From contig PXTS01000044.1 in assembly GCA_003022485.1 (NCBI GenBank), forward strand, positions 1 through 39,805: a stretch of 39,805 nt of DNA. The letters run 5' to 3'. The position numbers and the translations under genes are program-made. The first letter of the stretch is position 1; every line of letters begins with the position of its first letter. Positions 9,618 to 39,682 of the stretch are shown one piece after another. The DNA comes from Bacteroidetes bacterium QS_8_68_28 (lineage in GTDB: Bacteria; Bacteroidota; Rhodothermia; Rhodothermales; Salinibacteraceae). The notes beneath the pieces are model-generated. The model was given only the letters and a program-made list of their open reading frames with translations. It had not been told where the DNA came from and did not search any database.

Positions 9618-9709
9618 GTTTAGTGTTGGGGGGGCTTTAGCGTTGGGGGGACGGGGCTGTGGTGTTGTCGTTTCTTGCTTTCGAGCGTGGCTGCTCTCTC
9701 GTGGCTGCT

Positions 9710-10756
9710 CTACGCACGCTCTCCCTCGCGCTCCCACAGGCCCAGCAGGTAGTTCGCCCCGAGGGCGCGGTCGTAGAGGCCGTAGCCGGGACGCACGTTC
9801 GGGCGGTCCTCCTCGCCCCAGATCATGCGCCCGTGATCGGGGCGGAGCGGCCCGTCGAAGCCGCTCTCGCGCAGCGCGCGGACGACGGCGGCGAGGTCCA
9901 CGTCACCGCTCGGGTGCGGGGTTTCGTGAAAGCGTTTCTCGCCGGTCGCGCGCACGTTGCGCAGGTGGGCGAAGTGAACGCGCCCGCCCAGCCTCCGCGC
10001 CGCCCGGGGCAGCGCCTCGGCCTCGTCGGGGTCAGCCCCCAGCGAACCGGTGCAGAGGCACACCCCGTTGGCGGGCGTGCCGGCCAGCTCGGTCACGCGC
10101 TCCAGCGCGGCGGCGCTGGTGACGATGCGCGGCAGGTCGAAGACCGGCCACGGGGGGTCGTCGGGATGAATCGCGAGCTTGACGCCCGCTTCTTCGGCAA
10201 CGGGACCGACGCGCTCAAGAAAGTACGCGAGGTTTTGCCAGAGGTCCTCTTCGCCCACGCCCTCGCAAGCGTCGAGGAGTTCTTCCAACTCCACGCGCGA
10301 GTAGCTGGCCCAGGCGGGCAGCTCGCCGGTGCCGCCGGAAAAGTCGAACTCCGAGAGGTCGGCGTGGTCGTAAGCCAGCGCCTCGGAGCCGTCGGGCAGG
10401 CGGTGGGCCAGGTCCGTGCGCGTCCAGTCGAATACGGGCATGAAGTTGTAGCAGACGACCTCGATGCCCAGCGCCCCGGCGCGCTCGACGGAACGGGCGT
10501 AGTTGTCGATGTAGCGCTCGCGCCCGGGCCGGCCCAGCTTGATGTCTTCGTGGACGGGAATGCTCTCGATGGCCGAGAAGCGCAGGCCGGCGTCTTCGAT
10601 GCGCTCTTTGAGCCGGGCGAGATCTTCCTTCGGCCACGCCTGGCCGGGCGGCACGTCGTAGAGGGCGCTCACGACGTGTTCGACGCCGGGCACCTGGCGA
10701 ATCTGGTCAAGGCGCACGCCGTCGTCGGGGCCGTACCAGCGGACGGAAAGCTGCAT
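9710..10756 (-). CDS. uxuA: Mannonate dehydratase
   Basis: MQLSVRWYGPDDGVRLDQIRQVPGVEHVVSALYDVPPGQAWP; VKLAIHPDDPPWP; GVCLCTGSLGA; VHFAHLRNV; DHGRMIWGEE. Confidence 0.93.
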   Translation of the reverse strand: MQLSVRWYGPDDGVRLDQIRQVPGVEHVVSALYDVPPGQAWPKEDLARLKERIEDAGLRFSAIESIPVHEDIKLGRPGRERYIDNYARSVERAGALGIEVVCYNFMPVFDWTRTDLAHRLPDGSEALAYDHADLSEFDFSGGTGELPAWASYSRVELEELLDACEGVGEEDLWQNLAYFLERVGPVAEEAGVKLAIHPDDPPWPVFDLPRIVTSAAALERVTELAGTPANGVCLCTGSLGADPDEAEALPRAARRLGGRVHFAHLRNVRATGEKRFHETPHPSGDVDLAAVVRALRESGFDGPLRPDHGRMIWGEEDRPNVRPGYGLYDRALGANYLLGLWEREGERA

Positions 10757-10907
10757 GGGACGGGGTTTGGGAACGATGCACCGCAAGGGCATGACCTCCG
10801 GCCTCATCAGGCCCCTACATTTTTGTGAAATCGCGAGCTTGCCGGAGGCGCGGTTCTCTTCGGGGTCGCCGCTCGGCCTGTTTGCCCTCTTCCCCATTGC
10901 TCGGACC

Positions 10908-11696
10908 CTAAATCGTCATCGCCGAGTAGCCGCCGTCCACCGGCAGGTTGGTGCCGGTGACGAAGGAGCCGGCCCGCCCGGAGGCCAGGAGCAACGCCGC
11001 GCCGACCAGCTCTTCGGGGTCGCCGAAACGGCCCGCGGGCGTGTGGCCCATAATGTCGCTGATGCGCTCCTCGCTGAGGATCTCGCGGTTTTGCTCGGCC
11101 GGGAAGAAGCCCGGCGCCAAGGCGTTGACGCGGATCCCTTCCGGCGCCCACTCGCGTGCGAGGTTTTTGGTCAGGTTGATGAGGCCAGCCTTCGAGGCGG
11201 CGTAGGTGAACACCCGCGAGAGCGGCGTGATGCCGGCCATCGAGCTGACGTTGATGATCGCCCCGCCTTCGCCCTGATCGAGCAGATACTCGCCGAAGAC
11301 CTGACACGACAGGAAGACCCCCTTCAGGTTGACGTTCATGATGTGGTCCCACTCCTCCTCGTCAATTTTCAGAAACGGCGTGGCGGAGTTGACGCCCGCG
11401 CCGTTGACCAGCACGTCGAGGCGCCCGAAGCGCGCGTCCACCTCGTCGCGCAGGGCCTCCAGGTCGCCGCGCTCGGTCGTATCACAGGATACGAAAACCG
11501 CCTCGCCGGCCTCGTCGTGGCCCGAGAACTCCTCGGCGCGGTCCTCGCCGGTCTCACGGTCGCGCCCTACGATTACTGTGTCGGCCCCGGCGCGGCAGAG
11601 GCCTTCGGCAATCTGGCCGCCCAGCTCGCCGGTGGCGCCGATGACGACAGCGGTCTGGCCGTCGAGGGAAAAGTGATCGTCGAGGTAGGTGCTCAC
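10908..11696 (-). CDS. uxuB: SDR-family oxidoreductase, probable fructuronate reductase (D-mannonate oxidoreductase)
   Basis: Probable GTG start at 11696 (VSTYLDDHFSLDGQTAVVIGATGELGGQIAEGL); NVSSMAGITPLSRVFTYAASKAG and DGGYSAMTI; context next to uxuA. Specific function from context only. Confidence 0.75.
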   Translation of the reverse strand: MSTYLDDHFSLDGQTAVVIGATGELGGQIAEGLCRAGADTVIVGRDRETGEDRAEEFSGHDEAGEAVFVSCDTTERGDLEALRDEVDARFGRLDVLVNGAGVNSATPFLKIDEEEWDHIMNVNLKGVFLSCQVFGEYLLDQGEGGAIINVSSMAGITPLSRVFTYAASKAGLINLTKNLAREWAPEGIRVNALAPGFFPAEQNREILSEERISDIMGHTPAGRFGDPEELVGAALLLASGRAGSFVTGTNLPVDGGYSAMTI

Positions 11697-11771
11697 TTTT
11701 GAGGGAAAAGGAAGGGGAAAAGAGATTTCAATGCCGAACCGACCACCAAAATAGATTCCGGTGTTAGGTAA

Positions 11772-11789
11772 AGAGACAAAGACGTCTCT
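11772..11789. promoter_or_regulatory. Inverted repeat AGAGAC-N6-GTCTCT upstream of the SDR gene
   Basis: Read directly: AGAGACAAAGACGTCTCT, intergenic between the SDR gene and uxaE. Confidence 0.4.
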
Positions 11790-11822
11790 GGGTTCGCAAG
11801 CGACCGCCCCTTCTTCGAACAT

Positions 11823-11857
11823 CAAGATTTGTCTTGCTAACCCCAAGATTTGTCTTG
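11823..11857. promoter_or_regulatory. Tandem palindromic operator candidate, two exact CAAGATTTGTCTTG sites 21 bp apart
   Basis: CAAGATTTGTCTTG at 11823-11836 and 11844-11857; each has CAAGA/TCTTG dyad symmetry; 21 bp start-to-start is about two helical turns. Confidence 0.65.
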
Positions 11858-12008
11858 GTGAACCGACCGACAGGGTGAACGTTGCCTGATTAACTTCTCG
11901 AACGTCATCTTTGTGCTCTGTGAGAGGCAGACCGGTGTCGAGACTATTCAAACGCCGACTCACCATTTTGAACCCTTGACTCGCATTTTTAGCGAAGCGA
12001 CGCCTCCA

Positions 12009-13670
12009 CTACGCAGACGCCTCCGCCTGCTCGGGGGCGCGGTCGTTGGCGAAGACGCTGCCGACGCCGCCCAAGTGGCGGTCGAAGTGAGCTCCGAGCA
12101 CCTCGTAGTGCTCCGCCTCGTGCTCGTCGAGCAATGCGAAGAAGCGGTCCTTGAAGCGTGGCTCACCGCTCTCGCCGGTGGCCGTGAGGACTGAGCCGTA
12201 GGTGAGGTGCAGGAGCTGGCGGCCGTCATTTTTTTCGAGATACGTCTCTTCCAACTCTTCGTCGGCCACGTCTGCCGGGGCGGGGATGACGTCGAGGTCG
12301 GTGGTGACGTGGTAGGTCTTTTTGTCCGTCTCGAAACGCGTAAAGGCGTATCGCACGACCTCGCGGAAGACGGCCGGCGCGTGGCGGGCGGGAATGCGCA
12401 GGGCTTCGAGATAGCTTGTGCCGGCGGTCTTGAGGTGCAGCCGCCGGCCCGCGTGACGCCCCATGATCGGGTAGACGCTGAACTTGTCGCTGCCGGAGTG
12501 GATCGAGAGCTTGTAGCCGCCGAGTGCCTCGGCGATGGCGGCGTGCCGGGCGAAGCTCTCTTCGAAAGCGTCGAGGTCGCCGATGAAGTCGATTCCCTTC
12601 TGGAACTCGCCGGTGAAGCGCGGGGCGAGGCTCGTCACCGCTACGCCCAGACGCCGAAGCTCGGCAGCCACGAAGAAGTGCTCGCGCGGGCGCGTCGGGT
12701 GGTCGGTTTCGTCGACGGACATCTCCAGGTCGTAGGTTTCGCCGGGCCGCTCGGTCTCGTACTGCGCGGCGAGGTAGTCGGCCATCCGGCGCGTGTGCGC
12801 GATGGCCGCGCCATACTTGACGGCCGCGCGCATCAACTCCTCTTCGCTGAAGTCCACGCCCAGCGCCTCGGCCTCCTCGTGCGGCTCTTCTACGTAGCGG
12901 CGGAGCGCCTCCTCGGGAGTGCTGCCGAGGTTCTCCCAGGGCAGCGCCTGGAAGCGTTCTTCGAGCGGGTCGCCGCTCAAACCGTCGGCCTCGTTGTCGA
13001 CGTGGTCGGAGGGGTCGATGGTGTACATCGTGTAGCCCTCGGCGAGGCAGCGGTCGATGTGCTCTTCGGTCTTGAGGTGATCGGCGTCTGCGCCGTAGCC
13101 GCCCGTGAAGCCCGCCTCGAAGACGCCCCAGGTGGCATCCGCGAGCACTTCGGCAGGGGAGCGCCCGGTGCGCTCCATCTCGCGGATGGACTGCTGGGCG
13201 AGGACGGGGCGTGCCTCCGCCCTGCGGCAGGCGCGCAGGTGGCCGGGCGTGGCCATCCCCAGCCGGTCGCCGCACCCGACGGCGGAGGCGTTCCCCAGCG
13301 GCACCGGTGCCGTCCACGGAAACGCCGCGTGCAACGCCTTCGCGTTGCCGGGCGTGAGCGCGCAGACGGCCACGCGCTTCCCGCCGCCGGTTTCCAGCGA
13401 CGCTTCTTCCTCGAACGCGTTGCTCGGGTCGCCGCTTCCGGCCTCCTCGCCGGCCACGACGAGCCGCTTTTCTCTGTTTTTCTCGCCCCCCAGCCGTGCC
13501 AGCGCATACGTCGCCGCGCCCTGGTCCTGCACCGACGCGGCGTAGATCTTCACCGGCCCGTCCGCATGCTCACGCAACGCGTGCAACGTTTCTTCGGAGA
13601 GCGCGGCCTCTCCCTGCCCGCCCGCCGCCGAAGCGGATTCAGCGCGTCCGTCAACTTGACGTTCGTCCAT
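12009..13670 (-). CDS. uxaE: Tagaturonate epimerase (tagaturonate/fructuronate epimerase, UxaE family)
   Basis: 553 aa; LGMATPGHLRACRR, VLAQQSIREMERTGRSPAEVLADATWGVFEAGFTGGYGADADHLKTEEHIDRCLAEGYTMYTIDPSDHVDN, KLSIHSGSDKFSVYPIMG. Family from recall of UxaE-type proteins plus context. Confidence 0.82.
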   Translation of the reverse strand: MDERQVDGRAESASAAGGQGEAALSEETLHALREHADGPVKIYAASVQDQGAATYALARLGGEKNREKRLVVAGEEAGSGDPSNAFEEEASLETGGGKRVAVCALTPGNAKALHAAFPWTAPVPLGNASAVGCGDRLGMATPGHLRACRRAEARPVLAQQSIREMERTGRSPAEVLADATWGVFEAGFTGGYGADADHLKTEEHIDRCLAEGYTMYTIDPSDHVDNEADGLSGDPLEERFQALPWENLGSTPEEALRRYVEEPHEEAEALGVDFSEEELMRAAVKYGAAIAHTRRMADYLAAQYETERPGETYDLEMSVDETDHPTRPREHFFVAAELRRLGVAVTSLAPRFTGEFQKGIDFIGDLDAFEESFARHAAIAEALGGYKLSIHSGSDKFSVYPIMGRHAGRRLHLKTAGTSYLEALRIPARHAPAVFREVVRYAFTRFETDKKTYHVTTDLDVIPAPADVADEELEETYLEKNDGRQLLHLTYGSVLTATGESGEPRFKDRFFALLDEHEAEHYEVLGAHFDRHLGGVGSVFANDRAPEQAEASA

Positions 13671-13706
13671 CGTTCAGTCCGTTTTTCTGGTGCAGAAGGC
13701 TCGTTT

Positions 13707-13718
13707 AAAGGATCCTTT
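13707..13718. promoter_or_regulatory. 12 bp perfect palindrome AAAGGATCCTTT upstream of uxaE
   Basis: Read directly at 13707-13718 between dctM and uxaE. Confidence 0.25.
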
Positions 13719-13756
13719 GCCCCCGTCCCCCATCTACAACCGACGATCCACAAAAG

Positions 13757-14984
13757 TCAGTATCCGAAGAGGCGCGGGAGCCAGAGGCTCACTTCCGGCA
13801 CGAAGGTGACGACCAGGAGCGCGACCACCATAGCCAGAAAGAGCGGCAGCAACGGCCGCACGAGCCGCGAGATGGTCGTGTTGCCCACCGCCGCTCCCAC
13901 GAAGAGGACGCTCCCCACCGGCGGCGTGCACAGCCCCACGCACAGGTTGAGCACCATGACGATGCCGAAGTGCACCGGCTCGATGCCCAGCTCGGTCACG
14001 ATGGGTAAAAAGATGGGCGTGAAGATCAGCACCGCCGGCGTCATGTCCATGAAGGTGCCCATCACCAGCAGGATGGCGTTGATGATAAGCAGGATGCCGA
14101 CCGTGCTGTCGGTGAGGGTCAGAAGCGCGCGCGAGAGGTTCTGCGGAATCATTTCGTAGGAGAGCACCCACGACATCGCAATCGAGGTGCCGATCAAGAG
14201 CATCACCACGGCGGTCGTCTCGACGGCCCCCAGAAGAATCTCCGGCAGCTCTTGGACGGTCACTTCCCGGTAAATGAACGCCAAGACGAGCGCGTAGAGC
14301 ACGGCGATGGCCGCCGCCTCCGTTGCGGTGAAAATGCCCGCGACGATCCCACCGATCACGACGACAAGCATGAAGAGACTCGGCATAGCGTCCCGGAAGC
14401 GGCGCAGCGTTTCGCCGAGGGGCACGCGGTCGGAGGTAGGGTAGTCCGAGCGCCAAGCCCAGACGCCGGCCACGGCCATGAGGCTGAGCCCCACCAGGAT
14501 GCCCGGCACGTAGCCGGCCAGAAAGAGCGCCGCAATCGAGACGCCGCCCGAGGCGGGCAGCCCCGAAATTCTTATCATAACCTTCCTTCTCCATTTGCGG
14601 CGCCATGAAACCGCCCACGCCCGAGGCTGCCGCCACCGCCGAACCTGAGACCGCGCCGAAGAGCATCGAGGCCACCACGTTGACGTAGGCCAAGCCGCCG
14701 GGGAACGTCCCCAGCACTGCTTTTGCAAAGTCCACGAGCCGCCGCGCCATGCCGCCCCGGTTCATCAGTTGCCCGGCCAGGATGAAAAACGGAATCGCCA
14801 GAAGCGCAAACGAGTCGAGTCCCGTGGCCACGCGTTGGGCGACGGTCGTCATCGTCGCCGTCGGGCCGACCGAGAGGAGCAGCGTCAGCGCCGTGGAGAG
14901 GGCGATGCAGATGGCCACCGGCACGCCCACGAGGAGCAGCAACGCGAAGCTGACGGCGAGAATGAATACGGCGGTCGGGTCCAT
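13757..14984 (-). pseudogene. dctM: TRAP transporter large permease (DctM-like), frameshifted with an internal deletion near 14565-14580
   Basis: Frame A MDPTAVFILAVSFALLLLVGVPVAI...GGFMAPQMEKEGYDKNFGAA then loses similarity; DctM similarity resumes in frame B at ASGGVSIAALFLAGYVPGILVGLSL... to the C-terminus VTFVPEVSLWLPRLFGY. The expected TAASSxIGPIIPPS segment is absent. Confidence 0.8.
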
Positions 14985-15243
14985 CGGTCAGTTCGGGGGT
15001 GGTGTTGCCGGACGCGTTGCTTTTGGTGCGGGGCGTGAGGCGCGTGATGCGTGGAACGTGCTCGGTCGACAACGCCTGCCCGAAGATTTCGTCTTGGCAG
15101 GTTCACCACCAACGCCAATCAGAGCGTCCAGATGCTCAAATCTTGTTCCAGCCACCGCAGCCGAGCAACCTCACGCACCTGCACGTCAGGAACGCACGTC
15201 AGGAGTGAAACGACAAAGTAGGCTTGGAGGCCCCTCGCGTCAA

Positions 15244-15879
15244 TCAATCAATCGGAAGCGCTTTTTGGTCGTATCCGTCGGGTGGCGTGTCGTCGGCACC
15301 GGTCTCCAACGTGTCGGATTCGCCCATATCTGATTCGCCCATATCCACGGCCTGGTGCTGCTCCGTCTCGTCGGCGGAGGGGCCGGGAGCACGCTCCTCG
15401 GTAGCAACGTGCACGACCGCGTAGAAGAGCATCAGCAGCCCGCTGATGGGCACAACGGCGTAGACCACGCCCAGCGGCACATCCAGCGCCGGCGAGGTCT
15501 GCCCGAGCATAAGCTGGACGTAGACCAGCCGCCCCCCACCCCAGACCATCACCGCCAGCGCGAAAAGCCCTATGCACACCTGAATGAACGTCTCCAAGAG
15601 TGCGGCCCACCACCCTTCGAGCTGTTCTGGCAGTAGTTCCAGCGCTAAGTGCGTCTTCTGGCCCACGGCGTAGCCGGCCCCCAGTACGCCAATCCAAATC
15701 AGCATGAAGCGGGCCAGCTCGGTCGTGAAGCTGCTCGGGGACCCCATCACGAAGCGCGTGAACACGCCCCAGAGCACGTTCACCACGCTCAGGCCCATCA
15801 GCGCGACCAGCACAGGGCCGACGACGCGGTCGGTTCGGGATTTTAGACGTTGGATTTTAGACGTTGGATTTTTGCTCAT
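15244..15879 (-). CDS. dctQ: TRAP transporter small permease (DctQ-like)
   Basis: VVNVLWGVFTRFVMGSPSSFTTELARFMLIWIGVLGAGYAVGQKTHLALELLPEQL...; four hydrophobic segments; adjacent to dctP. Confidence 0.85.
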   Translation of the reverse strand: MSKNPTSKIQRLKSRTDRVVGPVLVALMGLSVVNVLWGVFTRFVMGSPSSFTTELARFMLIWIGVLGAGYAVGQKTHLALELLPEQLEGWWAALLETFIQVCIGLFALAVMVWGGGRLVYVQLMLGQTSPALDVPLGVVYAVVPISGLLMLFYAVVHVATEERAPGPSADETEQHQAVDMGESDMGESDTLETGADDTPPDGYDQKALPID

Positions 15880-17021
15880 GGCCTCTTTCCCCCGTTGCTT
15901 TCCGCTTGCCTTTCGCTCCTCATGTCGGCTACGCCAGCCGTGTCCGTAGCCGCCGAATCGTCCGTAGCCGCCGAATCGGTTCCGACGCTTCGGATTTCCT
16001 GAAGCAATTCGTAGACGACCGGGGCCTCCTCGCGGTAAGTCTCGTAAAGCGGCTCGACAGCTTCAGCGAACTTCTCCGTGTCGGGCCGAATGATCTCCAC
16101 GCCCGCCTTCTTGACCTCGCGCATGGCCTTTTTCGTCGCCTTATCCCAGAGGGTTTTCTGCACCTCGGCCGACATGCGCGCGGCCTTCATCAGCCAGCCG
16201 CGCTCCTTTTCCGAAAGGCGGTCCCAGAGGTGCGTCGAGGCGACCAGCACGTCCGGCACGGCCGTGTGGCGGTCCAGCGAGTAGTACTGGCACAGCTCGT
16301 AGTGGCGCGTGGTGTGAAACGACGGCGGGTTGTTCTCCGCTCCGGCCACGACCCCCTGCTGCAGTGCCGTGTAGAGCTCGCCGAAGGCGATGGGCGTGGG
16401 CGAGCCGCCGAGCTGGCGCACCATGCGAATGGCCACTGGGCTGGACTGGGTGCGAATCTTGAGGCCCTCCAGGTCCGACGGTTCGCGAATCGGGGTGTTC
16501 TTCGTGTAAAAAGAACGGCTTCCCGCATCGTAATAGACGATGCCGCGCAGCCACACGTCGCGGCTGGAGAGCAGAATGCGCTTCCCGATCTCCCCCTCCA
16601 AAACGTTAAAGCGGTGCTCCTCCCCTCGGAAGATGTAGGGCAACCCAAGAACCTTGTACGACAGCGAAAAGCTCTCCATTACTGCCGAGGAAACTTTCGT
16701 CATGTCGAGACTGCCGATCTGGAGCAGTTCGAGGGCCTGTCGCTCGGTGCCGAGTTGCTCGCTGGGGTAAATCTTCAGCGCCATTTGCCCACCGGAGAGC
16801 GAGTCGAGCTTCCGCCCCATCACTTCCATCGCCTGGTGCACCGGGTGCGTGGGGTCGAGCCCGTGTGCGAGACGGATCACGGTCTCGGCCTCCGCCGAAG
16901 CAGCGGATGCGGAGGGAACCGAAGAAGACCCCGGAGCCCCTCTGCAACTCGCCAAAAACACCCCGCCCACGATCAGGGCGATCCGGCTCGTGACCACCCC
17001 AATGAAGCGCAAGGTACGCAT
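15876..17021 (-). CDS. dctP: TRAP transporter substrate-binding lipoprotein (DctP-like)
   Basis: MRTLRFIGVVTSRIALIVGGVFLASC lipobox-like; VIRLAHGLDPTHPVHQAMEVMGRKLDSLSGGQMALKIYPSEQLGTERQALELLQIGSLDMTKVSS; EPSDLEGLKIRTQSSPVAIRMVRQLGGSPTPIAFGELYTALQQGVVAGAENNPPSF. Confidence 0.9.
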   Translation of the reverse strand: MRTLRFIGVVTSRIALIVGGVFLASCRGAPGSSSVPSASAASAEAETVIRLAHGLDPTHPVHQAMEVMGRKLDSLSGGQMALKIYPSEQLGTERQALELLQIGSLDMTKVSSAVMESFSLSYKVLGLPYIFRGEEHRFNVLEGEIGKRILLSSRDVWLRGIVYYDAGSRSFYTKNTPIREPSDLEGLKIRTQSSPVAIRMVRQLGGSPTPIAFGELYTALQQGVVAGAENNPPSFHTTRHYELCQYYSLDRHTAVPDVLVASTHLWDRLSEKERGWLMKAARMSAEVQKTLWDKATKKAMREVKKAGVEIIRPDTEKFAEAVEPLYETYREEAPVVYELLQEIRSVGTDSAATDDSAATDTAGVADMRSERQAESNGGKRP

Positions 17022-17667
17022 TCCACTACCGGACACTTTAGGATCGGCTGTTTTTAGGATCGGCTGTTTCGGACGCGGAAAAAGCCCGTAGCATGTCGTA
17101 GACTGGAGTTGTCCCCAGTCCTCATCAGCAGTGCCACAGGCTTTCCCGTGCGCTCTCGACTACGAAGATATCGCGCCGTGCGCCAACAGCTTTGCCATCG
17201 CTTCCCCCGACGCTTCCCATCCGGAGCGCCTCATGTGGACATTTACCCCTGCGGGCACGGTGGCGGGTGTCGTCGCGTCTGGCTCTGTGAGCCTCCCGAA
17301 GCGGGCGGTGAAAGCTCCGAACCAAAGCGCAACGTCACACGCGGGGCGATCCCGAGCGTTTCCTCTGCAGCGAGAACACCACATTCAAGACGTTGGTTGG
17401 TTATGGGGGCTAAAAGCGTATTCGAGCGTCAAGCGTGCAGAGCCGCTGGCGGATGGATGCGACTCCCGCTCACATTTTCCCCGTGCACGTGACGGACGAT
17501 GGAGCGCGGAGGTCTCGTGACCGGCGTTCCCTTTTCCCCGCCGGGAATCGGTGCCGCCGAGGCCGGGTCTTTCTCGCTGGAGGTGAGGTGCGGCTGCCGT
17601 AGTCGTCGCGCATCACGTTCCGTTTCTGACCGCTTCTTGCCCCAAAGCCAAAAAGCCACGCTCGACC

Positions 17668-22293: not shown

Positions 22294-22664
22294 GCCGTTT
22301 GGCCTGGTCGTTGTCGATCGGTAAGTTCTAGTGAATCATGCAAACGGGCGCACGATAAGCGCAGTTCCGCTGAAACGGTAGGACCTGAGCGTGGCGCCGG
22401 GGGCGGCTCGTCCTCGGCGACGGGCGTGCGTGGTCGTCTACGAAGATGGTGGGCGCGCTCCAAACGCGACTTCACGCCGGAGGCGAGCGCTGAAACGGCC
22501 GAGCGCCGAGACGCCTGCCGGTTGCCGGGCTTTCCGAAATCCGCTATACATTTTTCCGGAATCCGCTGTACATTGTAGTGCTGCTCCATTGCAGCAGTGC
22601 CGCGCCAGTTGGCGTTCGCCGCTTTCGCCTTTTCCCGTAGAAACCAGGTTTTGCCCCGAAGAGC

Positions 22665-24281
22665 ATGCAATTTGCATATATCGACTACGTTGTTTTTTGC
22701 ACTTACATTGTGGTGATCGTGGGGGCGGGGTTGTGGGTGTCTCGCGAGGAGGAGGGCCACCAGAAAGACTCCGCGGACTACTTTCTGGCCTCGAAGGCGC
22801 TGCCCTTTTGGGCGATCGGGGCGTCTTTGATCGCCTCGAACATCTCTGCAGAGCAGTTTATCGGGATGAGCGGGTCGGGTTTTCGGGTCGGGCTGGCGAT
22901 CGCTTCCTACGAGTGGATGGCGGCGGTGACTTTGCTTGTGATCGCGTGGTTTTTTCTGCCGATCTACCTGGAGAAGGAGATTTTCACGATGCCGCAGTTT
23001 CTTGAGGAGCGCTACGACGGGAGGGTGCGCACGCTTCTGGCGGTGTTTTGGCTGTTGGTGTACGTGTTCGTGAACTTGACGAGCGTGCTGTACCTTGGGG
23101 CCTTGGCGATGGAGGAGATCATGGGCACGCCTTTTTGGCTGGGCATTCTCTTTCTGGCCGGCTTTGCGACGACGTACTCGATCTACGGGGGGCTGAAGGC
23201 CGTCGCCTGGACGGACGTAATCCAGGTGGCCGTCTTGATCGGCGGGGGGCTTTTGACCACGTGGTTTGCTCTGGACGCCTACGCGGAGAGTCTCGGGGCC
23301 GACGGGCCGGTTGCCGGGCTGTCGGGACTTCTCGAAAACGCCTCGGACCGCTTCAACATGGTGCTTTTCGAAGGGGAGCTGACCTACACCGACGAGAGCG
23401 GCCGGACGCGGGACGCCTATCAGCTTTTGCCGGGGATCGGCGTGATCTTCGGCGGGATGTGGGTGGCGAACCTTTTTTACTGGGGCTGCAACCAGTACAT
23501 CATCCAGCGCGCCCTGGCGGCCCGGAGCCTCAAGGAGGCCCAGCGCGGGCTGGCGTTTGCCGGGTACTTGAAGCTGCTTTTGCCGCTGGTGGTGGTGGTG
23601 CCGGGGATCGTCGCCTACGCGCTGGACCCGGCCGCGATCGGCGTGGCCGACGACGCCTACCCGTGGCTTCTGGGGCAGTACCTGAGCCCGGGCCTGCGCG
23701 GGCTGGCGTTTGCGGCGCTGGTGGCGGCGGTGGTCTCCTCGCTGGCTTCGATGATGAACTCCACGGCGACGATCTTTACGATGGACCTTTACAAAACGTC
23801 GCGGTTCGGGGAGGAGGCCTCCGAGAGGCGGCTTGTCGGCGTCGGGCGCCTCGTGAGCCTCGCCTGCATCGCCGTTGCGTGCGTGATGGCCCCGCAGTTG
23901 GCGGCGTTCGACCAGGTGTTTCAGTACATTCAGGAGTACACCGGCTTTGTGAGCCCGGGGGTTCTGGCGGTGTTTATGACGGGGCTTTTTTGGAGCAAGG
24001 CCACGCCCGGGGCGGCGCTTGTTTCGGCGGTGCTTTCGATTCCGCTTTCGGCGGGGATGAAGTGGCTGGCTCCGGGGGTGCCGTTTATGCGGCGCATGTT
24101 GATTGTTTTCTTTCTGTCGGTGGCGCTGATCGTGGGGGTTTCGCTTTTGGAGGGGAAAGGCCAGGACCACCCGAAGGCCGTCGATCTTTCGGACGTGAAC
24201 CTCGTGGGCGACCCTGTTTACAACGTGGCGGCCTTCGGGATCTTGGGAATCACCGCCGCGCTCTACGCGGCGTTCTGGTAA
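22665..24281 (+). CDS. Sodium:solute symporter (SGLT-like sugar symporter)
   Basis: 538 aa; DSADYFLASKALPFWAIGASLIASNISAEQFIGMSGSGFRVGLAIASYEWMAA; GGMWVANLFYWGCNQYIIQRALAARSLKEAQRG; LAALVAAVVSSLASMMNSTATIFTMDLYK-like core. Confidence 0.93.
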   Translation: MQFAYIDYVVFCTYIVVIVGAGLWVSREEEGHQKDSADYFLASKALPFWAIGASLIASNISAEQFIGMSGSGFRVGLAIASYEWMAAVTLLVIAWFFLPIYLEKEIFTMPQFLEERYDGRVRTLLAVFWLLVYVFVNLTSVLYLGALAMEEIMGTPFWLGILFLAGFATTYSIYGGLKAVAWTDVIQVAVLIGGGLLTTWFALDAYAESLGADGPVAGLSGLLENASDRFNMVLFEGELTYTDESGRTRDAYQLLPGIGVIFGGMWVANLFYWGCNQYIIQRALAARSLKEAQRGLAFAGYLKLLLPLVVVVPGIVAYALDPAAIGVADDAYPWLLGQYLSPGLRGLAFAALVAAVVSSLASMMNSTATIFTMDLYKTSRFGEEASERRLVGVGRLVSLACIAVACVMAPQLAAFDQVFQYIQEYTGFVSPGVLAVFMTGLFWSKATPGAALVSAVLSIPLSAGMKWLAPGVPFMRRMLIVFFLSVALIVGVSLLEGKGQDHPKAVDLSDVNLVGDPVYNVAAFGILGITAALYAAFW

Positions 24282-24388
24282 CGCGCGGCGTTCTGGCAAC
24301 TGCCGAAGGCCACGCGCCCCCGCTGGCAACCTTCGCCGCCGCCGTTTTTTCTTCTCGACCTCCTCTCCAGACGCGCCGCTCCCTTCCT

Positions 24389-25648: not shown

Positions 25649-25934
25649 CGCCCTAAAGGCGGAGGGCACGTCTTGACGCGAAAGCGCTTGCGAGGCCGCC
25701 CAGGCATGTGACTTCGCTATCCGGCCCAACACACGTACCCCGCCCGGCGGATCTGACAGCGAATCTGCGTAACTCATCGGAGAGCAAAGCCTCCTTCGAT
25801 CTCTCCTCGGCGCTACTCGGACTCGACAGGTCGCCTGCATCGGCTTGTTGCATCGAAGGGCCGCAATCTTCCTGCCTCCTCTTGGCGAAGCGTCTACGCG
25901 ATCCGAAACTCGTCCGTCTACGAAACCCATCCGT

Positions 25935-27527
25935 CTACGAAACTCGTTTGACGACCACCGCTTCCGCCTCGCGCCGCGCCGGGAGCTCTTCGGGGAGTGC
26001 GCGCGGAGGTGCCACGGAGAGGCGAAAGTCAACGCGGCGGCTTTCCGCCCAGTATTCGATCACGTTTCCAGATCGCTTGTCGGCTCGGTGCAGGGAAAGA
26101 ATTTGCCCGACCGCGAAATCAACCATGGTTTCAGCGGAGAGGTGCCCGAGTGTCCGCCGGTGGCGGAGCGTGCGGCCCTGTCGGTGGTAGACGGCAAGCC
26201 GGCCCCCGCTCCCGTTGGTTCCCACCAGGTACACGACGCGAGCGTCGAGCTGCAAGGCCTCGGCGAGAACGCCCCTAAACACCTCGGCCGGAATCAAAGG
26301 CGCGGCTCCTTCGCTCGCGGCCGCCGTCGTCGCCGCCGCGTCCGTCTTACGCTCTCGACTCCGGCCGCGCCCCGAGGAGTTCGGCGGGCGTTCTTTCGAA
26401 GGGGGCCATTCCGTTCGGTGCTCTTCGAGACGCTCCCGGGCCCTTCGGAGCGTCTCTTGGAGGGAAGATGGAACTGAAGAGCGATCTTCAAAAAAGCGAA
26501 TGTCTTTTTCTTGCGGCGTCCTCCCCGCTGACAGGTCCGAACGGAGCCGCTGTACCGCCCGCTCGCGGGCGAGTTGGGGCAGGGCATCGGCGAAGACCTC
26601 TTCGATCCGCTCCTCGGGGGCGTACGCGAGCGTGTGGCTCGCCACCTCGAGGTCCGCCAGCAGGCGTTCCAGCGAAGGGCGCCCCGGATCATGCGAGGCG
26701 AATGCCCAGCGCAGCGTTCCCTTCTCTTTCTCGTACGCGGTGCGCACCGGGACCACGTTCAGATCGACCATGCGCGCCCACTGCTCGAGCGTGAAGCGGC
26801 TTCGGCGTTTGCGGATTAAGGTCCTGACGCTGTGCATGTTAAAGTCCACCGAGTCGAACTCGTAGACCTTGGCGGCCCGTGCGTAGACGGCTTCGCGATC
26901 CACCTCCGGCATCCGCGCGACGGTGCGCCAGAGCGCGCCGGGCATGCCTGCCTTCTTCCAGCGGCGCCGGGCGGCGCCCACCTGTCCGGCGGTCACGATC
27001 TGGTCGAAAAGGAGCATCGTCGCTACGCGGTCACGCAGATCCAGCGCCGAGAAGGAGTCTTGTTCTTGCTGCTGCGATCCCCGCCGTCCGTTCAGCGATG
27101 CCAGAGCGCGGGATCGCTCGCGCAAGAGCGCGCGCACGCGTCTCAGAAGCATGCTCGGGGGGAGCGGCCGGCTCACCACCTCGTCGGCGATCTCGAAGAT
27201 CCGCTCGCTCGCCGGTTGGTTGTGTTGTTTAGAAAGAACGAGAAGGCAGGGCAGGTAGCCTCTCGCCTCTTCTCTGAGGGCGCGCAGGGCATCCCGGTGC
27301 TGGTGAAGGGAGGGGCCGTCGATCAGCGCGAGGTCTACGTCTTTCGGCCAGGCGCTCGCGTGCCGGCCGCCCGCGACGTCATACTGCTTGCTTAGTTCAC
27401 GCCGAATCCGGCGCCGGTTGCCTGTCCCTTCGAAGAGAAGAAGGATCTGCTCTTGAGAATCGTTCGGATCCTCCTTTTCAGAGAGCATCTCTCCCAGAAG
27501 AAGCTCGCGCGCTGCCGCAGATTTCAT
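25935..27527 (-). CDS. Protein with degenerate receiver-like N-terminus and GspE/MshE N-terminal-like domains, no ATPase domain seen
   Basis: Start MKSAAARELLLGEML at 27527; ILLLFEGTGNRRRIRRELSKQYDV...EIADEVVSRPLPPSMLLRRVRALL receiver-like; LLFDQIVTAGQVGAARRRWKKAGM...FTLEQWARMVDLNVVPVRTAYEKEKGTLRWAFASHDP GspE-N-like; C-terminal LQLDARVVYLVGTNGSGGRLAVYHRQGRT...VDFRLSVAPP resembles the N2 region of T2SSE proteins. No Walker A GxxxxGK[ST]. Confidence 0.5.
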   Translation of the reverse strand: MKSAAARELLLGEMLSEKEDPNDSQEQILLLFEGTGNRRRIRRELSKQYDVAGGRHASAWPKDVDLALIDGPSLHQHRDALRALREEARGYLPCLLVLSKQHNQPASERIFEIADEVVSRPLPPSMLLRRVRALLRERSRALASLNGRRGSQQQEQDSFSALDLRDRVATMLLFDQIVTAGQVGAARRRWKKAGMPGALWRTVARMPEVDREAVYARAAKVYEFDSVDFNMHSVRTLIRKRRSRFTLEQWARMVDLNVVPVRTAYEKEKGTLRWAFASHDPGRPSLERLLADLEVASHTLAYAPEERIEEVFADALPQLARERAVQRLRSDLSAGRTPQEKDIRFFEDRSSVPSSLQETLRRARERLEEHRTEWPPSKERPPNSSGRGRSRERKTDAAATTAAASEGAAPLIPAEVFRGVLAEALQLDARVVYLVGTNGSGGRLAVYHRQGRTLRHRRTLGHLSAETMVDFAVGQILSLHRADKRSGNVIEYWAESRRVDFRLSVAPPRALPEELPARREAEAVVVKRVS

Positions 27528-29157: not shown

Positions 29158-29327
29158 GGAGGGCGGGGCCTGTCAGTGAATCAGTGCTCAGTGAAGCCGT
29201 GTTTGCGTCGTTCGAGGTGGTAGACGAGATGGCAAGAGCGGATGGCAAGAGCGGTTCGCGTGCAGGGAGCGCGGCCTGCGGCGCGAGGGGGAATGAGACG
29301 GCTGCCGAGAGCGCGCTTCCATTGCTT

Positions 29328-32300
29328 TCACGTTTCGGCCGTGCCGAGTTCGGCCGTGCCGAGCACCTCTCGGGTCGCCTCGAGCAGGTCGTCCTTCGAG
29401 AAGGGTTTGCCGAGGTGGCCGTCGAACCCGGCCTCGCGGTAGCGCTCCGCGTCGCCTCCCGTCGCATGGGCGGTAAACGCCACTGCCGGGACGCCCGCCG
29501 TCGGCGCGCCGGGCCCCTCGCGCAGCCGCCCGAGCAGTTCGATCCCATCTTCGGGGGCGCTCAGGCTGATATCGATGAGCATCAGGTCCAACGGCGCGCC
29601 GTCGGCCTCACTCCCAGTCCGGCCCTCGGCCAACGCGAGCGCCTCCTCGGCCCCCGCCGCGCTCTCCACGTCGCAATGCCCCCGGAGCATATGTTCGACC
29701 AATGCCCGCGTGTTGGCGTTGTCCTCGACGAGAAGAACTCGGGGCTGCGCGGGGCCTGCTTCCTCCCCGCCGCTGGACCGGTCCGCGTCCGGCGGCTCCG
29801 CTCCGGCAGTAGCCTCTCCGGCAGTAACCTCTTCGCCTGCCGGCCCCACAGGAGGGAACCGCATCGTGAACGTCGTCCCTTCGCCTTTCTCAGACTCCAC
29901 GTCGATGGTCCCGTCCATCTGCTCGACGAGGCGTTTGGCGATGGCCAGTCCCAGCCCGGCGCCCTCGTGCGAGCGCGTCAGCCCCTTCGACTCCTGCTCG
30001 AAGTCTGCAAAGAGGCCGCCGCCGCCTTCGAGGAAGTCGTCCCCGATCCCGGAGCCGGTGTCCTCGACCTCGACCCGTACTTCCTGCTCTCCCTGCTCAA
30101 CGCGTACGGTCACGTGGCCCTCCTCGGTAAACTTGATCGCGTTGCCGATCAGGTTGTCCAAGACGCGCCCGAAGGCCCCTTCGCTCAAAGCGGCGCGCGC
30201 GTCTTTCCCCTCGGGCGGAATCTGCACGCGCAGCGCGAGGCCCTTCTCCTCGGCCGCCGGGCGGTGCACTTCGGCGGCGGCGCGCACCTGCGCAGCCACG
30301 TCGGTCGGCGCGGTGGTCATCTCGGCCCGGCCCGTGCCGCCGCCGCCCTCCAGCTTCGCGAGCTCGAGGATCGAGTCGAGCGTCTTTTGCAGACGCTGCC
30401 CGCTCGCAACGATGCGCCCGGCGAACTCCTGCTGCTCGCCTTCGCTCTCCTCTCCGAGCACGTCCGCAAAGCCGATAATCGAGGCCAGCGGCGTGCGCAG
30501 CTCGTGGCTCATGTTGTTCAGAAACGAGGTCTTCGCTTCCAACAACTCCTCGGCGCGCTCGCGCGCCTCCCGCTCCGCCTCGAGCTCGACGCTGTCGCTC
30601 ACGTCGCGGGAGCTGACCAAGATGCCCTCGACGGCCGGGTTGTCCAGCAGGTTGCACCCGGCCGACTCGAGGTGCACCCACGAGCCGTCGGCGTGGCGCG
30701 TGCGAAACTGTACTTTCGTCGACTCGCCGGGGGGCGCCTGAATGATCGCTCGAAACGCCGCGCGCACGCGCTCCCGGTCGCCGGGGTGTATGCGCTCGAA
30801 AGAATTGGTGCCCTCGACGTCCGCCGGGGCGCGGCCGAGCACGCGCTTCGCGGAGGGGCTGGTCCGGCGGACCGTGCCGTCTTTTTCAAGGATGGTGATG
30901 ATGTCGGACGTGTTTTCGAAAAGCGCGCGGTGGTGCTCCTCGCTTTCCCGAAGCCGCTCTTCGGTCTCTTTGCGCGCGGTGACGTCCTGCACGATGCCGA
31001 CGATCTGAACGACCTCGCCGCCGTCCTCCTCGCTACGTACCGGGAACGCCCGGTCTCGAACCCACCGGATTTCTCCATCCGGGCGCACGACCCGAAACTC
31101 TTCGTCGTAGTCGCCCTGCGCCTGGTCGGTCAGGGCCGCTTCGCGGACGCGGTCGCGGTCCTCGGGATGGATCGCCTCGATCCACAAACGCGGTGACTCG
31201 TAGAGCTCCTCGCACCGGCGCCCCCAGATCTCCTCGAAGGCCGGGCTGATATAGCACATCTCCCGTTTTTGCGGGTCGGTGACCCAGAATACCTCCGTGA
31301 CCGTCTCGGCGATAAGCTGCAAGCGCTCCCGGTTCTCCCGGAGGGCCTCCTGGGCCTGCTTGCGCTCGCTGATGTCTTCGAAGAACACCGAGAGGCCGGT
31401 CTCGAAAGGGTACGCGCGAACCTCGACCCAGACGTCCAGCGGCGGGAAAAAGGTCTCGAGACTGACCGCTTCTCCCTCTGCGACGGCCCGGTGGCACTCC
31501 TCATCGAAGACCGTATCGACGGCCTCCGGGAACTCTTCCCACACGTTTTGCCCCAGCAGCTCCTCGCGCCGCCGCTCAAAGACGCGCTCGGCCGCGTCAT
31601 TGACGTAGGTAACGTTCCAGTCCTCGTCGAGCGCGAAGAACGCGTCGCTCATGCTCTCGAGGAGCTCTTCGATCTGGTCCCGGCTCTCGCGGAGGGCCTG
31701 CTCGGTCTGCTCCCGTTCGAAATAGCCGGCCAGCAGGTCGCTGGTCACGCGCAGGACGTGCGAGTCGCTGCGGTCCCAGTCGCGGCCCGGGCCGGTGTGC
31801 TCGAAGCCGAGGACGCCGTAGAGCGTGCCGTCGCTCCGGGGAATCGGCACGTCCAGCAGTGACGCGATGTCCTGCCGGGCGAGGTAGCGCTGCTCCGCCT
31901 CCGCCTCGGGCGGCAGATCGGAGACCCGGATATGCAGCGGTTCCTCAACTTGCCGGAGCTGCTCGAACCACCACGGAAACGCCTCGGGAGAAAGGGTTTC
32001 TTTGCGTTGGGTAGTCCTTGGCCCGGAGGACTCCTGATGCGAAGCAACCCACTCGTGCGTTCGGGCCAGCGGCCCGTCGGCGCCGGGGCGCTCGAGAAGG
32101 TACGTACGGTCGGCTTCGACGGCCTCGCCCAGCAGCGCGAGCACCGCGTCGAGGTCGGCGTCCCCAGAGAGTAGCTCGGAAGATACGCGGGCCACCGTTT
32201 CTTCCAAGCGCGCGCGGCGCTGCTCCATTTCGCTCATCACCATCGCGGCGAAGTCCTCGAGGCGCGTCTTCTCCTCGTCGCTAAAGCCGCGCGGCTTCCG

Positions 32301-32849: not shown

Positions 32850-33025
32850 CGCACGCGACGATCACGCGGACCTGAACAGCCATTGCGACATCAATTTCGC
32901 GACGGTATGACAGGCCGCTACGCTTACTTACAGACGTGCTTGTAGGAACTCTTGTAGGAACGAGAGGGCTTTGAGCCGGCTGCAACTACGTCAAAGACAA
33001 TGCCACTCACGCCGCAGTCACGCCC

Positions 33026-33073
33026 CTGTTCCACGCCAGGGCTGTTCTACACCAGAGCTGTTCTACGCCAGAG
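33026..33073. repeat. Three tandem 16 bp units spanning the sufE stop codon
   Basis: CTGTTCCACGCCAGGG / CTGTTCTACACCAGAG / CTGTTCTACGCCAGAG; the sufE stop (TAG, minus) lies in the third unit at 33063-33065. Confidence 0.9.
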
Positions 33074-33494
33074 CCGCGGCGCGTTCTTTGATCTGGCGCA
33101 CCATCGCGTGGAGGCCGTTTTTGCGTGTGGGCGAGAGGTGTTCGTCCATGCCGATCTCGCCGAGGAAGCCCAGCTCGACGGTAACAACGGCCTCCGGCGG
33201 CTGGTCGTCGAGCACGCGGATCAGCAGCGCCACGAGGCCGCGCGTGATGGCGGCGTTGCTGTCGCCGGTGAGGCGCAGGCGCCCGTTCTCGCCGGGCTCG
33301 GCGCGCACCCAGACCTTCGACTGGCATCCCTCGATGCGGTGCGCGTCGTTTTTGTACGCCTCGGCGATTTCGGGAATCTCGCGGCCCAGGTCGATCAGGT
33401 GCTCGTAGCGGCCCATCCAGCCGTCGAAGAGGCTGAACTCAGCGATGAGGTCGTCTGCACGGGCGTCGATGGTGGATTCGGCCGTAGCAGGCAT
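33063..33494 (-). CDS. sufE: Fe-S biogenesis cysteine desulfuration protein SufE
   Basis: DDLIAEFSLFDGWMGRYEHLIDLGREIPEIAEAYKNDAHRIEGCQSKVWVRAEPGENGRLRLTGDSNAAITRGLVALLIRVLDDQPPEAV; GCQS cysteine motif. Confidence 0.92.
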   Translation of the reverse strand: MPATAESTIDARADDLIAEFSLFDGWMGRYEHLIDLGREIPEIAEAYKNDAHRIEGCQSKVWVRAEPGENGRLRLTGDSNAAITRGLVALLIRVLDDQPPEAVVTVELGFLGEIGMDEHLSPTRKNGLHAMVRQIKERAAALA

Positions 33495-34861: not shown

Positions 34862-34888
34862 CGTGGTAGAGGGGTGTGAAGTGAGGGG

Positions 34889-34924: not shown

Positions 34925-34941
34925 TCCTTTCAAACCTTCCT

Positions 34942-36312: not shown

Positions 36313-36451
36313 GAAAGTCAGATCCTTGCTTGTTCGAAAAGGGAGTGTGGGGGCATGGGGAAGCCCCCAGCAACGGTGTTGAATGTCAAAAGTACTTGTT
36401 CGCTTCGCTCACGGCGCGGGAGATCTCTCACACTCATCAAACAACCGCTCC

Positions 36452-37249
36452 TCAAGCAACCGCCTCCTCCGGCTCGGCCGCCTTGCCGTTCTCCGCCGCG
36501 TTGCCGCCGGAGAGCCACTCGTAGCCGCGCTCCTCCAGCTCCACGGCCAGGTCCTTGTCACCGCTCTTGGCAATCCGACCGCCGACCATCGCGTGCACGT
36601 AGTCCGGCTCGATGTAATTGAGGAGCCGCTGGTAGTGGGTAATGATGATAAACGCGCGGTCCTCGTCGCGCAGTTGGTTCACGCCGTCGGCGACGATGCG
36701 GAGCGCATCGATGTCGAGGCCGCTGTCGGTTTCGTCGAGAATGGCGAGGCGCGGCTCCAGCATGGCGAGATGGAAGATCTCGTTGCGCTTTTTCTCTCCG
36801 CCGCTGAAGCCTTCGTTGACCGAACGCTTCGTGAGCGCCTCGTCGAGATCGACGAGGTCGGCCTTCGCGCGCACCTGCTTGATGAAGTCCGCCGCGCCGA
36901 GTTCGTCCTTGCCCTGCGCCTCGCGCACGGCGTTGACCGATTCTTTGAGGAAGTTCTGCTGGCTCACGCCCGGCAGCTCCACCGGATACTGAAACGCCAT
37001 GAAGACGCCCGCCTGGGCGCGCTCCTCGGCTTCCATCTCCAGCAGGTCCTCCCCGTCGTACTGAACGCTTCCCTGCCTCACCTCGTACTCCTCGCGCCCG
37101 GCCAGCACCTTCGCCAGCGTGGACTTGCCCGAACCGTTGGGGCCCATGACCGCGTGCACCTCGCCGCCGTCGGCGTCCAGGTCGACCCCGCGCAGGATTT
37201 CGGTGTCCTCAATGCCGACGTGCAGGTCGTTTATTTCGAGTAAAGCCAT
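36452..37249 (-). CDS. sufC: Fe-S cluster assembly ATPase SufC
   Basis: MGPNGSGKSTLAKVLAG (Walker A), FSGGEKKRNEIFHLAMLEPRLAILDETDSGLDIDAL (signature and Walker B). Confidence 0.96.
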   Translation of the reverse strand: MALLEINDLHVGIEDTEILRGVDLDADGGEVHAVMGPNGSGKSTLAKVLAGREEYEVRQGSVQYDGEDLLEMEAEERAQAGVFMAFQYPVELPGVSQQNFLKESVNAVREAQGKDELGAADFIKQVRAKADLVDLDEALTKRSVNEGFSGGEKKRNEIFHLAMLEPRLAILDETDSGLDIDALRIVADGVNQLRDEDRAFIIITHYQRLLNYIEPDYVHAMVGGRIAKSGDKDLAVELEERGYEWLSGGNAAENGKAAEPEEAVA

Positions 37250-37320
37250 GTTGCTCGTTGAGTGCGTGTTTGCAGTTCAGAAAAGTACGTTTCGGTCAGC
37301 GGGCGGGTAGAGGGTGCGGG

Positions 37321-37406
37321 GGTATGGGAGTGTGGGAGTTTTCAGGTTGCCGGCGCTCTCGCTGCCCGGGAACTTCCACACTCCCGCACTCCCACACGTG
37401 AGAGGG
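37321..37406. repeat. Long imperfect inverted repeat just downstream of sufB
   Basis: GGTATGGGAGTGTGGGAGTTTTC at 37321-37343 opposes the right arm GGGAACTTCCACACTCCCGCACTCCCACACG ending about 37398; roughly 17 of 23 aligned positions match. Confidence 0.5.
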
Positions 37407-37412
37407 AGGCGA

Positions 37413-38839
37413 TCAGCCGACCGAACCTTCCAGTTCAATCGCCAACAGCTCCTTCGCCTCCACGGCAAACTCCATCGGCAGCTCCGCGAGGATCTCCTTG
37501 CAGAAGCCGTTGACGATGAGCTTGAGGGCCTCCCTTCGCCGACCTTCGAGGTGGTCGCCTCGTGCTCGACCTTCGCCGTCGGGTTGCCCACCTCGATGTA
37601 CGGGAAGGTGTGCGCCCCGCAGTCCTCGCCGATCAAGAGCGAGTCGCACTGGCTGAAGTTGCGTGCGTTTTCAGCGCCCTCGTTGATCTTGACGAGGCCG
37701 CGATAGGAGTTTTCCGCAACCCCCGCCGAGATCCCCTTCGAGATAATTGTGGACTTGGTGTTTTTGCCGATGTGGGTCATCTTGGTCCCGGTGTCGGCCT
37801 GCTGGTGGCCCTTCGTGAAGGCCACCGAGTAAAACTCGCCGACCGAGTCGTCGCCTTTCAGGATGACCGACGGGTACTTTTGCGTCACCGCCGAGCCGGT
37901 CTCCAGCTGCGTCCAGCTGATCTTCGAGCGGTCGCCTTTGCAGATGCCGCGCTTGGTGACGAGATTGAAGATGCCGCCCTCGCCGGTCTCGGGGTTGCCG
38001 GGGTACCAGTTCTGAATCGTCGAATACTTGATCTCGGCGTCCTCTTCGGCCACGAGCTCGACGACGGCCGCGTGAAGCTGGTTGTGCTTGCGCATCGGCG
38101 CGGTGCACCCCTCCATGTAGCTCACGTAGCTGCCCGGCTCGGCCACGATCAGGGTGCGCTCAAACTGGCCGGTGTTCTGCTCGTTGATGCGGAAGTACGT
38201 CGAAAGCTCCATCGGGCAGGTTACCCCCTCGGGCACGTAGACGAACGAGCCGTCGGAGAAGACCGCCGAGTTGAGCGCGGCGTAGAGGTTGTCGGTGTAG
38301 GGGACGACCGAGCCCATGTGCTTGCGCACCAGCTCGGGGTGCTCCTGGGCCGCCTCGCCGAAGCTCATGAAGATGACGCCCGCCTCCTCGAGCTTTTCCT
38401 GGAAGGTCGTGGCGACCGAGACGGAGTCCATGACCGCATCGACGGCCACGCCGGTGAGGGCCTTTTGCTCTTCGAGGGGAATGCCGAGGCGCTCGAACGT
38501 GTCGAGCAGCTCCTGCGGGACCTCCTCCATGCTGTCGTACTGCGCCTTCTCCTTCGGCGCCGAGTAGTAGCTCATGTTCTGGAAGTCCGGCTCCTCGTAG
38601 TCGAGGTGTGCCCAGTCGGGATAGAAGTCCTCCTGCTGGATGAGCCGGTCGAAGTAGCGGTAGGCCTTCAAGCGCCACTCCAGGAGCCATTCCGGCTCGT
38701 CCTTTTTGGCCGAGATCATGCGCACGGTCTCCTCGTCGAGGCCCGGTTCGGCGGTGTCGGCCTCGATGTCGGTCTCCCAGCCGTGCTTGTAGTCCTGCTC
38801 GGCAACGTCCTGTAGATACTGCGTCTCTGCGGTACTCAT
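37413..38839 (-). pseudogene. sufB: Fe-S scaffold SufB with an apparent frameshift plus internal deletion near 37531-37537
   Basis: Frame [50 protein letters not shown]...[12 protein letters not shown]; similarity resumes in frame B at [39 protein letters not shown]. The usual DQLFYLxxRGLxxE linker is missing. Confidence 0.88.
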
Positions 38840-39249
38840 AGCGCGCTGCGGGTCGCTTGGGGCGAAAGAAAGGAAGGAGGGGCGCTCCGCCGGCCCGCTG
38901 CCTCGGGGGGCTACTTCAGTGGATGAGATGCAACCCTGCGCGCGAGGGCAACGTTCCTTTGGGCCGCCCACTTCCCGCCGTCTTAACGTGGGAATGATCG
39001 GGCTGCGCGGGGCGCAGGGGCGGGGGGCGCTCGGCGTTCTTCGAAGCGCGGACGAATGCACGGAAAGCGGACGAATGCACGAAAAGAACGCCACGCGCCC
39101 TGCCCCCGGTGCCGGGCGCGCTGACGGAGAAACCTCTTTTCGGGGCGAAAGTTTACCTCATCGAGCGACCGAAGGCCGGCCTGCGCGGGCCCTCCCACGC
39201 CGATGCAGACCCCCCGCGCTCCCCACCCAACACGAACCACGCAACAGCC

Positions 39250-39657
39250 ATGGAGCTTTCCCAGAACGACCTCTTCGGCGACGGCCCCCAGACCGAGGCG
39301 ACGGCCAAGAGGGAGCTGCCTGCCCTCGACCTTACGATCACCGAGCGCGCCCTTGACCAGCTCTGGGAGGTGGCCCGCGAGGACGACGTGGACCCCGGCA
39401 CGGCGATGCTGCGCGTGGCGGTGGTGCCCGGCGGGTGCAGCGGGCTGACTTACGACCTCGGCTGGGACACGACCGAGCAGGAGAGCGACACGACCGAGGA
39501 GGCCGGCGGCCTCTGCTTCGTCCTGGACAAGAAAAGCCGCCTCTACCTGAGCGGCACCGAGATGGACTTTACCGACGGGCTCCAGGGCGAGGGCTTTCAC
39601 TTCAAGAACCCGCAGGCGGCGCGCACCTGCGCCTGCGGCGAGTCGTTCGGGGTGTGA
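39250..39657 (+). CDS. HesB/IscA/SufA-type iron-sulfur carrier protein
   Basis: LTITERALDQLWEVAREDDVDPGTAMLRVAVVPGGCSGLTYDLGWDT...GEGFHFKNPQAARTCACGESFGV; three conserved Cys in GGCSG and CACG. Confidence 0.9.
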   Translation: MELSQNDLFGDGPQTEATAKRELPALDLTITERALDQLWEVAREDDVDPGTAMLRVAVVPGGCSGLTYDLGWDTTEQESDTTEEAGGLCFVLDKKSRLYLSGTEMDFTDGLQGEGFHFKNPQAARTCACGESFGV

Positions 39658-39682
39658 ATGTCGTTCGGGGTGTGAATGCGCA

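Follow-up and report, generated by a model that had tools for sequence, protein, structure and literature searches.

Recurrent short tandem duplications with a 13-21 bp size window in noncoding DNA and at gene ends of a Salinibacteraceae genome

Why should one contig carry so many short tandem duplications that are unrelated in sequence? The window analysed here is a stretch of 39,805 nucleotides of Bacteroidetes bacterium QS_8_68_28 (Salinibacteraceae; contig PXTS01000044.1, positions 1 to 39,805), in which an earlier note, made from the sequence alone, had listed 16 such arrays at gene boundaries. Our comparison of this genome with relatives and with shuffled controls establishes that the phenomenon is real, far above chance, elevated in the lineage, shaped by selection and unusual in its size window. 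Short tandem duplication itself is a known kind of mutation.

We counted tandem duplications with a period of 10-30 bp in 625 kb of the same genome (an assembly of 1.81 Mb in 88 contigs, 62% complete), in 327 kb and 293 kb of its two sister species and in 100 kb from each of eight relatives. The sisters, G001 and G002, have about 80% DNA identity to the own genome (G000) in alignable parts, and the three genus assemblies are 56-62% complete. The tagaturonate epimerase of the own genome has its nearest named relatives in a Bacteroidetes MAG (isolate GSL.Bin8) and a Salinivenus MAG, which probably places the genome in the lineage of the salt-loving Salinibacter (Rhodothermia). Genes were called by a purpose-made codon-usage caller that yields 18-22% noncoding DNA and probably over-calls it; the own sample is split into 512 kb of genes and 113 kb outside. 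Codons were preserved within genes and dinucleotides outside them in the shuffles. The excess over the shuffles is large, with 163 duplications (261 per Mb) against 4.6. By place, 61 lie within genes, 24 across gene edges and 78 in noncoding DNA, compared to 3.8, 0.2 and 0.6 in the shuffles. The density is 131 per Mb in G001 and 194 per Mb in G002, and ranges from 0 to 100 per Mb in the small samples of the eight relatives. In 65 loci from other phyla, which come almost entirely from draft metagenome assemblies, the density is 15 per Mb, and Escherichia coli K-12 has one duplication in 100 kb. Counting those of 13-21 bp that lie outside genes or across gene edges, the own genome reaches 826 per Mb of noncoding DNA (95% interval 666-1012), G002 632 and G001 300. 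Among the relatives the values are 380 (123-887) in G009, 256 (70-656) in G031 and 0-79 in the other six. The process is strongest in the own genus and not strictly limited to it.

The periods of the own noncoding arrays form one sharp mode, with 93 arrays of 13-21 bp, two of 22-120 bp and seven of 10-12 bp, and most arrays hold about two copies. Mismatched arrays show the same size ceiling despite mostly short exact runs (median 12 bp). The units are AT-rich, with a GC content of 0.551 compared to 0.656 in the flanking noncoding DNA (p about 1e-9) and a step at the array edge; in the sisters, where samples are smaller, the difference has the same direction and is not significant. Neither the sharp size window nor the AT-richness features in the earlier note. 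A single dispersed repeat family is ruled out, as the units are unrelated in sequence: the 152 noncoding units of the three genomes yield just 30 pairs with any common 9-mer. Among 46 exact own noncoding arrays, the number of bases continuing beyond two copies is zero in 16, one in 15 and two in three, which is near chance. Classical slippage at pre-existing repeats, which the earlier note had proposed, is thereby disfavoured, since the flanking homology of the exact arrays is little above the chance level. Base preferences at the array edges are weak. Mismatches between copies comprise 52 transitions and 16 transversions, matching the expectation for ageing. The duplications are not clustered within noncoding DNA beyond random, and inverted repeats are no more frequent than in relatives. 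Two narrower accounts of the base composition were rejected. A melting-limited overhang fails because AT content does not rise with unit length, and for a UV-type TT preference the AT and TA dinucleotides are more enriched than AA/TT, so that general AT-richness fits better. Separately, G002 noncoding DNA contains degenerate heptamer arrays (like ACGNANT; L179 16731, L180 14432 and 15861, L197 1631) that give 14-bp periods, and its lag-7 self-similarity is raised. Some arrays of 14 bp, found mainly in G002, show a 7-bp sub-period and may be a second phenomenon.

The reading frame leaves a clear mark on the arrays. Within own genes the period is divisible by three in 54 of 61 cases, whereas outside genes all three remainders are about equally common. 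Of the arrays whose period is not a multiple of three, seven lie in the 512 kb of genes compared to 68 in the 113 kb outside, which makes them about 44 times rarer per base in genes. We also asked whether coding continues in the shifted frame past an array, with in-frame arrays as control: only one of 71 frame-breaking arrays lies inside the reading frame that it breaks, compared to 24 of 54 in the control. The near absence of frame-breaking periods from genes is strong evidence that the duplications are present in living cells and that selection filters them. Around genes, the density in the 30 bp after stop codons is 2260 per Mb in the own genome, 857 in G001 and 1799 in G002, compared to 654, 201 and 443 in other noncoding DNA. 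This 3.5- to 4-fold peak is found separately in each of the three genomes, but the caller probably over-calls noncoding DNA, so that part of the "other" DNA is likely to be coding and the contrast to be inflated; the real difference may be closer to 2-3-fold. The 30 bp before start codons show no comparable rise, and in-frame arrays reach a somewhat higher density at the first and last codons of genes. The placement at gene boundaries described in the earlier note therefore holds in part: for noncoding DNA in general, which holds most of the excess, and for the region after stops, but not for the region before starts. Its suggestion that duplications are tolerated at gene ends is supported. 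Tolerance by selection is a simple explanation of the gene-end pattern, with a mutational hotspot at gene ends as the alternative. The note's further idea of a backup stop finds no support: in the 20 own duplications where the gene-proximal copy holds the stop, the period modulo three is 0, 1 and 2 in 7, 6 and 7 cases, and duplicated stops thus have no in-frame bias.

The earlier note expected relatives to retain single-copy ancestral states. The noncoding DNA of the sisters is mostly unalignable, which leaves few polarised cases. At these few aligned sites the ancestral state looks single-copy. The best polarised case is the end of the window, which shares 98% identity with the end of G001 contig C64. 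At 39048-39086 the own genome doubles 19 bp, while G001 holds that unit once and doubles the adjoining 18 bp instead. At 39642-39678 G001 is single-copy, with a longer and different spacer. Elsewhere, G001 lacks a 21-bp duplication of the own genome (L116 1439-1491), and the own genome lacks a 15-bp duplication of G001 (L161 5367-5403). Some features of these contig ends are unusual in themselves. Compared with L159, the spacer after the Fe-S biosynthesis gene (window 39657-39677) is wholly replaced (about 19 versus 74 bases) amid flanks that are 98% identical, and in the sister only it contains a terminator-like inverted repeat. The 98% identity of the C64 end (L159 14710-15893) to the window contrasts with about 80% identity between the species elsewhere. 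Another G001 contig, C13 (L158 11641-13150), ends in an inverted, diverged second piece of sufB that is partly 100% identical to the window. These odd ends may reflect recombination, strain mixture or chimeric contig ends.

Taken together, a mutation process elevated in this lineage and acting with purifying selection very probably underlies the arrays. They would be scars of one recurrent mutation class whose rate is high in the genus, in which a segment about 13-21 bp long, AT-rich by the standard of this genome, gains one adjacent copy without the help of flanking homology. In the most likely step, the DNA would open at a staggered break or at two nicks spaced about 13-21 nt, both ends would be filled in and the ends would be rejoined, so that the outcome would resemble a target-site duplication without an insert. 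Selection would then purge events that shift the frame or disturb a start, and the survivors would gather in intergenic DNA, with their highest density in the 30 bp after stops, along with in-frame events in genes. Copying in place, independent of homology and bounded in length, is what the fill-in of a staggered opening followed by rejoining would look like. Of the two processes named in the earlier note, slippage or break repair, the latter would be the best mechanism family. On balance we lean towards recurrent, homology-free, in-place duplication filtered by selection as the best explanation as a whole, and we propose the fill-in step itself only tentatively. More doubtful still is that the genus possesses a Ku-free activity that opens AT-rich sites with a 13-21-nt stagger and reseals them after fill-in, which would make short tandem duplications a dominant class of insertion in its noncoding DNA. 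Several points weigh against the best explanation. Simple fill-in would not set a lower limit near 13-14 bp on the size, and longer units are not more AT-rich, the weak trend being opposite. Nine of the 46 exact own noncoding arrays have at least three extra bases, and homology may therefore play a part in some events. The polarised sites are very few, and the best of them lies at a possibly chimeric contig end. Finally, no candidate enzyme was found, and Ku turned up only in genomes outside the family.

The last point comes from a search for repair and mobile-element genes. Ku was not found in genomes G000-G024, including near-complete genomes of the family, and is found in two of 41 genomes, G025 and G039, both outside it. 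The three genus genomes yielded no domains of ATP-dependent ligase, reverse transcriptase, Cas1 or Argonaute, and a DNA_pol_B_thumb match in G000 and G002 falls below the cut-off. Of the three, only G002 has a MutS match. With 56-62% completeness of the genus genomes, all these absences are weak evidence. Both sisters have the whole PolA 5'-3' exonuclease domain, whereas in the own genome a frame of 807 amino acids matches only the last third of it (contig C63, 4441-4596), perhaps because the contig ends there or because the gene is genuinely truncated. In one relative, G004, the sample (L213-L217) contains very many exact spaced noncoding repeats; one sampled stretch starts beside cas1 (G004:C1:329030-329947), so that the repeats are probably a CRISPR array.

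The partial PolA domain bears on a rival explanation, in which replication slippage or flap processing duplicates the DNA that lies between two short direct repeats (ABA to ABABA), as happens when a flap nuclease is defective. This route yields arrays of two to a few copies and of about this size, duplication at short direct repeats is a main event in rad27-deleted yeast (PMC5677150), and a minority of our arrays do have at least three extra bases. We nevertheless regard it as unlikely, because most exact arrays have chance-level flanking homology, the sisters show the excess with a complete PolA exonuclease domain, and the route gives no sharp ceiling at 21 bp. Bounded, homology-free copying in place also resembles target-site duplication, and the arrays could be scars of mobile elements that made 13-21-bp target-site duplications and then excised precisely. 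Target-site duplications of one element are usually narrow in length, which counts against this explanation. Moreover, the 625-kb own sample contains only three exact noncoding direct repeats that are 14 bp or longer and lie 60-5000 bp apart, and separated noncoding copies are more than an order of magnitude fewer than tandem ones. We therefore consider excision scars improbable.

Retention for a benefit, through backup stops, terminator spacing or gene-end regulation, would account for the density peak right after stop codons in the three genomes. It is still more improbable, given that duplicated stops lack an in-frame bias, that the units have no common sequence and that duplications also occur in frame within genes and throughout noncoding DNA. 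An artefact of assembly or amplification deserves attention with assemblies this incomplete, given the inverted sufB copy at the end of one G001 contig, the frameshifting deletions in the own sufB and dctM, and a 21-bp ceiling that coincides with a common assembler k-mer. An artefact, however, would not spare frame-breaking positions in genes, the copies bear transition-rich mismatches, and diverged arrays with mostly short exact runs obey the same ceiling. Draft loci from other phyla stay at 15 per Mb, and the near-complete genomes G009 and G031 are raised too, with wide intervals. We consider that an artefact can hardly explain the arrays.

The mutation that these arrays suggest differs from the systems closest to it. 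In mammalian cells, fill-in at staggered breaks gives small tandem duplications and depends strongly on Ku and, at 3' overhangs, on CST/Pol alpha-primase (PMC8355091). The resemblance lies in tandem copies made in place, mostly with little microhomology, which are a dominant outcome at some staggered breaks there; unlike the mammalian case, Ku is not found in the family here and the lengths fall in a window of 13-21 bp. As to Ku-dependent fill-in joining as a class, the microhomology-free duplications are present and Ku was not found. The rad27-deleted yeast likewise acquires short tandem duplications genome-wide, but they are flanked by direct repeats, whereas the homology here is mostly at chance level (PMC5677150). 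Bacterial variable-number tandem repeats and minisatellites are also tandem and often intergenic; the present arrays occur at hundreds per Mb of noncoding DNA, mostly in two copies, with a narrow period and unrelated units. Variable-number repeats vary in copy number between strains; the comparison here covers a few sites between near-identical stretches, with one copy in one genome and two in the other. The TAACTGA repeats of Beggiatoaceae are similarly abundant intergenic direct repeats, but consist of one conserved 7-bp sequence, whereas the units here are specific to each site (PMC4679880). In the literature searched we found no description of a bacterial genus with a bounded, mostly homology-free mode of duplication.

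Within the window, all 16 arrays of the earlier note are present where it placed them, and its description of many independent, mutually unrelated duplications is borne out. Tandem Repeats Finder (TRF; score 30) recovers 13 of them, and a stricter finder (period 10-30, identity at least 85%, about two copies or more) recovers 12 and adds two that had not been listed. Both programs detect these two, at 4025-4058 (15 bp x 2.3, exact, in frame within a TonB-dependent receptor gene) and 29801-29832 (15 bp x 2.1, 94% identity, in frame within the sensor kinase gene). The three arrays without a TRF match are weak and were seen in the sequence: 9619-9652 beside the aldolase gene start (17 bp x 2, G-rich, 2 mismatches), 9686-9713 across the uxuA stop (14 bp x 2, 2 mismatches) and 15181-15206 in the dctM-dctQ interval (13 bp x 2, 2 mismatches, 11 of 13 matching). 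The array across the symporter stop at 24266-24300 (18 bp x 1.9) is found by TRF; all others are found by both programs. Around the dct genes these are 15317-15345 (15 bp x 1.9, exact, in frame within dctQ), 15838-15872 (14 bp x 2.5, exact, at the dctP end and the dctQ start, whose position is uncertain), 15942-15978 (18 bp x 2.1, exact, in frame at the dctP C-terminal end) and 17037-17069 (16 bp x 2.1, exact, immediately upstream of dctP). Upstream of the SSF symporter, 22531-22574 (22 bp x 2, 91% identity) has the second-longest noncoding period of the own sample. The array at 25904-25947 (17 bp x 2.6) crosses the stop of the minus-strand gene 25935-27527 and that at 33026-33074 (16 bp x 3.1, 88% identity) the sufE stop, and in both the gene-proximal copy holds the stop. 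Noncoding arrays lie between the KaiC-family gene and the sensor kinase (29228-29254, 13 bp x 2.1, exact) and between the kinase start and sufE (32939-32961, 12 bp x 1.9, exact), and 29334-29363 (15 bp x 2, exact) repeats C-terminal codons of the kinase in frame. The two arrays polarised above are 39048-39086 (19 bp x 2.1, 95% identity), in the interval between sufB and the HesB-type Fe-S biosynthesis gene, and 39642-39678 (18 bp x 2.1, exact), across the stop of the latter. The gene names in the earlier note are mostly right, with Pfam backing the SUF genes, dctPQM, SSF symporter, KaiC family, PAS/GAF sensor kinase, UxuA and KDPG aldolase. Compared to the sister species, the own genome lacks 40 bp in sufB (window 37534), 68 bp in dctM (window 14556) and 47 bp at L106 13891; all three deletions shift the frame of conserved genes and reflect either gene decay or assembly error.

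Human DNA frequently mutates by small tandem duplication, and the mammalian route to this change can be Ku-dependent end joining of staggered breaks. If the explanation proposed here is true, a lineage that has these duplications many times more often than most of its relatives, with a hard size window and with no Ku found, could serve as a natural system in which to discover how bacteria arrive at the same mutation, and would reveal the speed at which intergenic DNA and the 3' ends of genes can grow.

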